Shown: positions 24,569 to 25,776 of the stretch, piece by piece
Numbering within the stretch: position 1 is the first letter of the stretch
How the letters are laid out: each line of letters opens with the position of its first letter
DNA from: Noviherbaspirillum sp. Root189
Lineage (GTDB): Bacteria; Pseudomonadota; Gammaproteobacteria; Burkholderiales; Burkholderiaceae_D
Length of the DNA: 64,000 nt
Assembly: GCF_001428545.1 (NCBI RefSeq)
Contig: NZ_LMHZ01000034.1
Span: forward strand, 120,174-184,173
Direction: 5' to 3'
The notes under the pieces: generated by a model
What the model was told of the DNA's origin: nothing
The model's database searches: none
Seen by the model: the letters and a program-made list of their open reading frames with translations, nothing else
Program-made: the position numbers and the translations under genes

Positions 24569-25420
24569 TCAAATTGTCTGGTCCATTTCCACCGAAGGAC
24601 ACGCCTGGTCGAGATGATGGCGAACCACGCGCGCCGGCACGCCGGCCACCGTGCAATGCGGCGGCACCGGGCGCAGGACGACGCTGCCCGCAGCCACCTT
24701 GCTCATCGTACCGACTTCGATATTGCCCAGTATCTTTGCACCCGCACCAATCATCACGCCACTGCGGATCTTGGGGTGACGGTCGCCATGCTCCTTGCCG
24801 GTGCCGCCCAGTGTGACGTTCTGCAGAATGGAGACATTGTCTTCGATGAGCGTCGTTTCGCCGATCACGATCCCGGTACCATGGTCGAACATGACTCCGC
24901 AACCGATACGCGCAGCGGGATGGATATCGACGGCGAATACCAGCGATGCCTGATTAGCAAGCGCTTGCGCCAGCGCCTGCCTGTGCTGCAGCCACAGCGC
25001 GTGCGCGATGCGGTAAGTCTGCAAGGCCTGGAAACCTTTCAGGTTCAGCAGCACGTGCAGATAATCACCGCAGGCGGGGTCGCGGGTTCTTACCGCGAAC
25101 AGGTCCGCTGCAATGCGTGCCGTCACGTTATCGTCGATAAGGTCGGAAAACAGCGCATGCAAGGCTTGCTCGTCCATATCGGCGCTGGCCAGCCGCCGCG
25201 CCAGTACGGCGGCCATGGCGCCGGCCAGCCCGGTGTGGGCCAGCACCAGCGCCTGCAGCCGTGGCTGCAGGACCGCTTCGTGCTGCGCTACCTCTACCGC
25301 AGCGGCATGGATGTCCTGCCAGATCACGGCCGCTGGTGGTGCATCGGGCGTTTTTTCTTCAGCTTTCCCGAATGGAAACGGTACTACGGCGGTGGCTGTT
25401 CTACTTTGTAAGCTGTTCAT
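24569..25420 (-). CDS. cysE: Serine O-acetyltransferase
   Basis: A 283-aa protein, the first enzyme of cysteine synthesis from serine: acetyl-CoA + L-serine to O-acetylserine. The C-terminal left-handed beta-helix contains the CysE hallmark DIHPAARIGCGVMFDHGTGIVIGET, then LGGTGKEHGDRHPKIRSGVMIGAGAKILGNIEVG; the N-terminal helical domain is present (DPACGDYLHVLLNLKGFQALQTYRIAH). The C-terminus (DQTI) ends in Ile, as in CysE proteins that bind CysK. The start at 25420 has AAAGGA upstream. The leader is unusual: two short Cys-Cys ORFs and a terminator-like hairpin lie at 25430-25601. It stands apart from other cys genes. Confidence 0.93.
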   Translation of the reverse strand: MNSLQSRTATAVVPFPFGKAEEKTPDAPPAAVIWQDIHAAAVEVAQHEAVLQPRLQALVLAHTGLAGAMAAVLARRLASADMDEQALHALFSDLIDDNVTARIAADLFAVRTRDPACGDYLHVLLNLKGFQALQTYRIAHALWLQHRQALAQALANQASLVFAVDIHPAARIGCGVMFDHGTGIVIGETTLIEDNVSILQNVTLGGTGKEHGDRHPKIRSGVMIGAGAKILGNIEVGTMSKVAAGSVVLRPVPPHCTVAGVPARVVRHHLDQACPSVEMDQTI

Positions 25421-25429
25421 CGGATTCCT

Positions 25430-25498
25430 TTACGTTTTTCTTCCTGTCATCACAGTGGAAAAACAACATGGCCGCAGGTCTTTCAACGCTGCGGCCAT
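25430..25498 (-). CDS. Putative cysE leader peptide 2 (Cys-Cys, 22 aa)
   Basis: ATG at 25498 opens a 22-codon frame starting MAAALKDLRPCCF and ending TGRKT at TAA 25430-25432, 9 nt before the cysE ATG. The tandem Cys codons (TGT TGT, 25468-25463) fall at the T-rich tract of a perfect hairpin, the start codon in its 5' arm. No Shine-Dalgarno sequence precedes the ATG, although the frame is open further upstream without a stop for about 20 codons. Translation is therefore unproven. Confidence 0.45.
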   Translation of the reverse strand: MAAALKDLRPCCFSTVMTGRKT

Positions 25499-25499
25499 G
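25459..25499 (-). promoter_or_regulatory. Candidate transcription attenuator of cysE
   Basis: On the minus strand a perfect 11-bp stem CATGGCCGCAG (25499-25489) / CTGCGGCCATG (25477-25467) with an 11-nt loop is followed by TTGTTTTT (25466-25459). It lies about 40-80 nt upstream of cysE in the same orientation. No minus-strand gene lies directly upstream that would need termination, so it is better read as an attenuator than as a plain terminator. Confidence 0.6.
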
Positions 25500-25529
25500 G
25501 TTAGTCGACAAAAAACGTGCGCGTGCGCG

Positions 25530-25601
25530 TCAGCGAGTCGCCTTCCCAGGCCGACTGCGACAACAACCCGGCATGCGGGTGAAAACACTTTGCTTGTCCA
25601 T
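25530..25601 (-). CDS. Putative cysE leader peptide 1 (Cys-Cys, 23 aa)
   Basis: ATG at 25601 opens a 23-codon frame beginning MDKQSVFTRMPGCCRSR, with TGT TGT at codons 13-14 (25565-25560) and TGA at 25530-25532. The frame could start further up at 25649 (MSHRIIHK). No Shine-Dalgarno is visible at either start. It lies wholly upstream of the second leader frame and the hairpin. Confidence 0.4.
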   Translation of the reverse strand: MDKQSVFTRMPGCCRSRPGKATR

Positions 25602-25776
25602 TTGTCGAATCAAAAAGTAAATAAGCTTATGTATTATTCGATGGGACATTAAAGCATATTTCAGTTTTTTGCGTGCGTCGTGCATGCGCACTTGGGTGAC
25701 CGCGCAAGTCAAGTTAAGTCAAGGTATGCATCTTGCAAGTGCATACCACTTTGTTCTTTGCAATTTGTTGGTAACT

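Follow-up and report, generated by a model that had tools for sequence, protein, structure and literature searches.

The accessory cysE gene described here is most likely preceded by a ribosome-mediated transcription attenuator, in which a short reading frame with a pair of Cys codons (ORF1) would sense the charging of tRNA-Cys. The gene is located in the window, the whole stretch of 64,000 nucleotides of Noviherbaspirillum sp. Root189 that was analysed. Comparison of the DNA across genomes establishes ORF1 with its Cys codons and the terminator, and it links them to cysE and, in a unit of like kind, to a divergent cysS. The CysE protein scored 230 bits against TIGR01172, above the cut-off, and the Pfam domains SATase_N (PF06426) and Hexapep (PF00132) were also above their cut-offs. 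A second cysE-like gene is located elsewhere in the same genome (G000:C23:22921-23439). The features of the leader and the gene are given below.

25656-25648, minus strand: extended -10 element TGCTTTAAT, 46 nt before ORF1, a consensus match only
25621-25630, no strand assigned: palindrome ATAAGCTTAT, a possible operator, seen by eye in the same place in genus-type leaders
25601-25530, minus strand: leader ORF1 of 23 codons, MDKQSVFTRMPGCCRSRPGKATR and stop; an ORF with Cys-Cys occurs in 13 distinct leaders and a 14th
25565-25560, minus strand: putative sensing Cys codons TGT TGT, codons 13-14 of ORF1; Cys-Cys in 13 of 13 leaders
25560-25545, minus strand: candidate antiterminator strand in ORF1 (UCGCAGUCGGCCUGGG), complementary to the 5' arm of the hairpin
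25532-25528, minus strand: stop codon plus CG (UGACG), able to form a weak protector stem with the Cys codons UGUUG
25499-25467, minus strand: intrinsic terminator hairpin with T tract at 25466-25459, in 13 of 13 leaders; its 5' arm doubles as the candidate antiterminator partner
25498-25430, minus strand: ORF2, MAAALKDLRPCCFSTVMTGRKT and stop, with TGT TGT at codons 11-12; Cys-Cys in 2 of 13 leaders
25420-24569, minus strand: cysE, serine O-acetyltransferase with an N-terminal SATase domain

The coordinates of ORF1 and the TGT TGT at its codons 13-14 had been given by an earlier sequence-only reading and were confirmed by direct reading of the DNA. The Cys-Cys pair was invariant among the 13 distinct cysE leaders, and the codons of the last pair differed by synonymous changes only (TGTTGT in eleven leaders, TGTTGC in L002 and TGCTGT in L013). 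Additional Cys codons were present in the leader ORFs of L010 (CCAQCC), L013 (CCRCCRC) and L244 (CCCRCRC). TGT made up 24 of the 26 Cys-pair codons versus 32 of 170 Cys codons in forty of the window's mechanical ORFs, each 200 aa or longer, an excess of which relatedness and RNA pairing may be a partial cause. Between the last Cys pair and the ORF1 stop lay 36 nt in 11 of 14 leaders, and 39, 51 and 48 nt (L244) in the others; the interval between stop and hairpin varied from 20 to 35 nt. Despite indels, the ATG of ORF1 was an invariant column in the 11-row alignment of genus-type leaders, where 30 to 42 nt separated it from the Cys codons. The C-terminus of the peptide was partly kept among leaders (CCRxRPxGLAD) and the N-terminus and length (21-36 aa) differed. 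A search of the own genome for a second copy of the leader DNA returned the leader itself only.

Within the genus, 11 of the 15 genomes searched carried cysE at 69% identity or more, G004, G007, G009 and G011 being without it, and all 11 had a short Cys-Cys ORF and a hairpin with T tract upstream of the gene. Outside the genus, the leader unit was located before cysE in three genomes: a Burkholderiales MAG from a different family (L010), Caldimonas mangrovi (L013) and one further member of the Caldimonas genus (L244, which stands outside the alignments and the 13-leader set). cysE was found at E 1e-60 in four of nine genomes of the Caldimonas genus, the two with weaker matches (L245, L246) being without the leader, and in one of ten genomes in the family of G351. 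A total of 109 cysE loci, 80 from one search and 29 from another (the 29 and the window's own being among 49 places), were examined over the 450 nt that precede the tblastn match; to count, a leader needed an ATG, a Cys-Cys pair and a hairpin followed by a T tract. The leader unit was present at ten loci (nine distinct leaders) and by this criterion absent from 99, including loci of Duganella, Janthinobacterium, Pasteurellaceae and Marinomonas. Seven loci whose upstream DNA was identical to that of others (L085, L087-L092) were counted once, and L142, which is the same record as L010, was counted apart only among these 109 loci.

A conserved short ORF with codons for the end-product amino acid before the gene, and an intrinsic terminator with T tract between the two in all 13 leaders, are features by which attenuators are recognised. 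In the window the terminator is formed by CATGGCCGCAG and CTGCGGCCATG, a perfect stem of 11 bp (25499-25489 with 25477-25467) with an 11-nt loop and the tail TTGTTTTT. The perfect 11-bp stem with its tail had been placed at 25499-25459 from the sequence alone; it is seen in the DNA, and a hairpin with T tract is present in 13 of 13 leaders. The hairpin was unlisted in a general terminator scan of the window, which takes loops of 3-8 nt only. In the alignment of the terminators 91.7% of cells were paired, both sides had changed in five of the twelve pairs among the 13 leaders, and the covariation score was reached by none of 500 shuffles. An extra palindrome followed by CGTTTTT was observed in L001 at 1296-1309 (GCGTCAG/CTGACGC); it overlaps the end of ORF1, ahead of the main terminator, and as it has no loop bases, its outer pairs alone could form a stem.

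Cys leaders were also found upstream of a further cysteine gene, cysS. When the 13 cysE leaders were made into a covariance model, it matched the region before this gene in two genomes outside the model, G134 (L176, E 1e-16) and G237 (L183, E 2e-5), where the cysteinyl-tRNA synthetase was over the TIGR00435 cut-off. The divergent cysS was found at E 1e-100 in 12 of the 300 genomes searched (Burkholderiales loci L194-L205), and 11 of these loci featured a leader ORF bearing two to four consecutive Cys codons (for example MSMTKSLSCCCAPICICCCAHRRVCSQ and MISQCCCRASHRVA), no farther than about 200 nt upstream. In nine of the 11 leaders a 7-13 bp hairpin was followed by a T-rich tail; no convincing terminator was seen in L195 and L196, and locus L201 had no leader. 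A census of cysS genes in eight of the twelve genomes placed the divergent cysS as a second copy in G134, G021 and G237 and as the only cysS over the cut-off in the other five (G223, G177, G097, G052 and G139). Save for L194 and L198, which were found by the cysE model, the cysS leaders look unlike the cysE leaders in sequence, and the Cys runs before this gene are for that reason largely independent support for sensing of cysteinyl-tRNA. For the housekeeping cysS the gene start was found in six of seven loci, with upstream Cys-Cys ORFs in L208 (own genome) and L212 and none in L206, L207, L209 and L210.

Searches with a profile of the leader peptide and with the covariance model were extended further. 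In the 15 genus genomes the 11 best profile matches (E 5e-13 to 9e-7) were the leaders used to build the profile, and so are not independent; the first match beyond them was at only 2e-4, and no downstream gene was recognised as a cysteine gene when 17 weaker loci were scanned by eye. Four of 399 Burkholderiales genomes (the own genome and three others) had profile matches at E 0.001, in a search that can miss leaders because at most 21 candidates were scored per genome; the loci in the three others (L171-L173) were in or beside unrelated ORFs. The covariance model matched 82 of the 399 genomes at E 0.1, many of the matches being to the hairpin only, and the cysE matches in G000 and G351 were leaders already in the model. 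Among the best 20 places of the model, the 19 outside the own genome comprised one cysE MAG (in the model), two cysS and 16 others, and at these 16 no Cys-pair leader was seen before a recognised cysteine gene. Across 369 genomes of the class eight had matches at E 1e-4, seven of them not the own genome, and none of the seven had a Cys leader before the hairpin. A tblastn search of one leader peptide against plasmids gave a single match at E 5. No Rfam covariance model reached its gathering score in the window, the region 25380-25700 having a chance-level match on the other strand (E 1.6), and an Rfam riboswitch or T-box was rejected as the identity of the leader.

Other leaders were encountered during these searches. 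Five of the seven class-wide matches outside the own genome precede an ORF like an EamA transporter. At L177, L178, L184, L189, L192, L237-L239, L241 and L242 terminator hairpins stand directly before an ORF like MS[VIL]PxAxxxVILIWSTTPLAIxWS; the ORF of L237 passes Pfam EamA, that of L239 is below the cut-off and the others were judged by eye. Several of the EamA-like loci have a visible small upstream ORF, none with a Cys pair, and these hairpins and small ORFs are possibly another leader attenuator. L182 has a leader similar to those of the EamA-type loci with a different downstream ORF. L179 and L191, from two Burkholderiales genomes, were seen by eye to have a small ORF ending RFVSGSM[AV][KT]G before a CCCGGAG/CTCCGGG terminator.

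The sequence-only reading had left the promoter without a location. A candidate is now provided by the extended -10 element 46 nt upstream of ORF1, as TGnTnnAAT was kept in all 11 genus-type leaders at 35-70 nt before the ORF1 ATG, and from the sequence the leader RNA is predicted to start near 25640, about 40 nt upstream of ORF1. The same reading had seen no Shine-Dalgarno motif for either ORF, which was borne out by a motif check for ORF1 and by eye for ORF2; across the cysE and cysS leaders no such motif was found before the leader ORFs except AGGA in L086. A leaderless start was scored as a -10-like box of 4/6 or better, 5-8 nt before the ATG. A hexamer of this kind (at least 4/6) was present 5-7 nt before the ATG in seven of the 11 cysS leaders and in L010 and L013, and in five of these nine leaders it was 18 nt behind TTGACC or TTGACG. 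Control positions passed in 0-7% and the genus-type leaders in one of 11. The ORF1 of the window failed the test and was rejected as a leaderless ORF. Several Cys leaders of relatives look leaderless by their sequence, like the polycysteine ORFs of mycobacteria, and the ORF1 of the window does not.

The palindrome ATAAGCTTAT is located downstream of the conserved -10 element, and relatives carry ATATCGATAT or similar in the same place. Among the genus-type leaders it was perfect in six of 11, imperfect in four and absent from L004. It could be an operator.

From these features we infer promoter use, translation of ORF1, an antiterminator switch and a response to cysteine, in a scheme that may work as follows. 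RNA polymerase would start about 40 nt upstream of ORF1, with a ribosome translating ORF1 behind it. When cysteine is sufficient the ribosome would reach the ORF1 stop and cover the segment behind the Cys codons, upon which the GGCCGCAG/CTGCGGCC hairpin would form and transcription would stop at the U tract, short of cysE. Under a shortage of cysteinyl-tRNA the ribosome would wait with the first Cys codon in the A site, leaving GUCGGCCUGGG just downstream free to pair with CCAUGGCCGC, which comprises the terminator's 5' arm and flank; the terminator could not then form and cysE would be transcribed. The leader would probably let the cell make more serine acetyltransferase when cysteine is short, because an ORF with Cys codons and a stop signal are conserved before a cysteine gene.

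The pairing partners for such a switch were assessed by complementarity, covariation and folding. The stretch that follows the Cys codons (in several leaders CGC..GCGGCC..GGGG) is able to pair with the terminator's 5' arm plus the flank upstream of it, and in the window the duplex was predicted at -18.2 kcal/mol, with a shuffle p of 0.086 for the window sequence alone. Against dinucleotide shuffles the complementarity was at p < 0.05 in seven of the 13 cysE leaders singly. In the nine cysS leaders with hairpins the Fisher p was 0.007, with two of the nine below 0.05 singly, and it was 0.016 when L195 and L196 were included. In L008 and L086 the ORF strand (CAGCC), the 5' arm (GGCTGC) and the 3' arm (GCAGCC) had changed together, which is one event in two similar leaders. 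Antiterminator covariation was not significant over the alignment, with 75.3% of cells paired and 234 of 500 shuffles as high (two rows being misaligned by one codon), and the pairing of own versus foreign strands was matched by 316 of 5000 permutations. The Cys codons and the stop paired in 98.4% of cells in 13 leaders, versus at most 63.1% when slid, and this pairing was also present in the RNAalifold structure; the stem was not above shuffles in any single leader. The pairing is informative only in part, since any stop codon pairs with UUG.

Folding was carried out with the ribosome footprint masked. Before the 3' arm is made, the 5' arm in the window was predicted to pair with ORF1 at 0.83 without a ribosome and 0.82 with the first Cys codon in the A site, falling to 0.28 when the second Cys codon occupied the A site and to 0.01 for a ribosome at the stop. 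Across the 13 leaders this pairing was at least 0.44 in nine with the first Cys codon in the A site, above 0.5 in four with the ribosome at the stop, and at least 0.66 in 11 without a ribosome. At equilibrium the terminator dominated in every ribosome state. The classical attenuation scheme is supported by this modelling for the window and not uniformly for the 13-leader set. An antiterminator made from the part of ORF1 that follows the Cys codons is plausible, with weak support from covariation and modelling, and fits better than a switch in ORF2; attenuation is, judging from the leaders compared, likely to be how the switch works.

The version put forward by the sequence-only reading was that a ribosome stalled on ORF2, a second sensing leader, covers the hairpin. 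ORF2 exists in the window as that reading described, by direct inspection, with TGT TGT at codons 11-12 and an end 9 nt before the cysE ATG at 25420, and L084 has a similar ORF2 with Cys-Cys. Conservation in relatives, which the same reading had named as a test, holds for the Cys pair of ORF1 and the hairpin across the 13 leaders; the Cys pair of ORF2 is confined to the window and L084, and its length, frame and end change from species to species. ORF2 was rejected as the sensor on these grounds, and a switch by covering of the hairpin is unlikely for the same reason. With its start inside the hairpin stem and no Shine-Dalgarno motif by eye, a sensing role for ORF2 is very improbable. It is, on the aligned leaders, a by-product without a role in the mechanism, owed to an ATGGCC within the hairpin and to a T tract that can read TGTTGT. 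The proposal of a cysteine-responsive leader-peptide attenuator before cysE gains support from the comparison and from the cysS parallels, with its sensor moved to ORF1. Chance association of a short ORF without Shine-Dalgarno motif and an ordinary hairpin in a GC-rich leader was considered as well. The Cys pair alone is not rare among the small ORFs of the window, because 55 of its 852 ATG ORFs of 10-40 aa contain Cys-Cys (nested starts counted apart), and the strong evidence in the DNA is the conservation of ORF1 together with the hairpin. A hairpin of at least 8 bp with a T tract up to 90 nt downstream accompanied five of the 852, and both features were combined in three small ORFs, all nested starts of ORF1. 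Conservation in three genome groups and Cys leaders before a second cysteine gene leave coincidence scarcely tenable, and it is excluded in practice.

ORF1 might instead encode a small Cys-Cys peptide with a metal- or redox-related function, the hairpin being merely its terminator. The partly conserved C-terminus would suit such a peptide, but the residues kept after Cys-Cys fall on the very RNA segment that is able to pair with the hairpin, leaders differ in N-terminus and length, the ORF accompanies cysE in 11 of 11 genomes within the genus, and similar Cys ORFs precede cysS, so that this explanation is improbable. A further alternative keeps the response to cysteine and changes the switch, for example with stalled or terminating ribosomes acting on Rho or on cysE translation and the hairpin a constitutive partial terminator. 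It would agree with the antiterminator covariation, which is not significant, with folding states that do not separate across the whole leader set, and with mycobacterial Cys leaders, which are described without conserved terminator hairpins in the available text of PMC1262725. The terminator with T tract in every leader, the complementarity of the segment behind the Cys codons above shuffles and the 36-nt spacing from Cys codons to stop in 11 of 14 leaders, which suggests a structural switch, speak against it, and we regard it as rather unlikely.

If the attenuator is real, cysE and cysteine biosynthesis in Betaproteobacteria join the genes proposed to be under leader-peptide attenuation. The formation of O-acetylserine is classically controlled by feedback inhibition and the pathway is also under CysB, so an input from tRNA charging to this step would be a distinct layer of control. 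The chances seem evenly balanced that Burkholderiales have a small regulon responding to cysteinyl-tRNA charging through Cys-run leader ORFs, often leaderless, with terminators, which in some genomes would govern a second, starvation-inducible serine acetyltransferase and in others a divergent cysS (second or only copy), and which would have evolved apart from the cases in Rhodobacterales and mycobacteria. The cysE leader suggests a repeated origin of poly-Cys leaders, and the apparently leaderless Cys leaders before cysS would make simple reporters.

In the trp, his and leu attenuators of Proteobacteria, a short ORF with many codons for the regulatory amino acid is combined with RNA pairings that exclude each other and with an intrinsic terminator. 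The cysE leader resembles them in its short ORF with codons for the amino acid, its candidate exclusive pairings and its intrinsic terminator, and differs in that cysteine is the amino acid and that the ORF itself holds the candidate antiterminator strand, directly after the sensing codons. Canestrari et al. reportedly described leaderless polycysteine short ORFs in mycobacteria in 2020. The -10-like box 5-7 nt before the ATG in seven of 11 cysS leaders, L010 and L013 makes these similar to the mycobacterial leaderless ORFs, unlike the ORF of the window's genus, where one of 11 passes the -10 test. Short ORFs with runs of Cys codons before cysteine genes are shared with the leaders of actinobacterial cys operons, for which the portion of PMC1262725 that was available reports no conserved terminator hairpin in Mycobacterium; experimental work on the mycobacterial polycysteine leaders is cited in the available parts of PMC9094748 and PMC13236596.

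A Cys leader before a betaproteobacterial cysE had been thought new, and no published Cys leader before cysE or in Betaproteobacteria was found in a literature search that took in few subscription papers; the available text of PMC2965389 makes no mention of a cysteine leader. A Cys-Cys leader before cysS of Rhodobacterales had been published in 2021 as the uORFC-8-2 motif and is the closest published case (PMC8632094, available part). According to that text, its uORF has two tandem Cys codons, usually at positions 14-15, its first stem holds the Cys codons, its U run is consistent with an intrinsic terminator and a response to cysteinyl-tRNA is proposed, in all of which the present leader is similar. 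The present leader falls outside uORFC-8-2, as its gene is cysE, and the two are likened by features and not by sequence relation: uORFC-8-2 belongs to Alphaproteobacteria and cysS with mostly UGC codons (PMC8632094), whereas the leader here belongs to Burkholderiales and cysE with mostly UGU. The cysE leader is most likely a known kind of attenuator that is new in its target gene and lineage and is part of a wider set of Burkholderiales Cys leaders.
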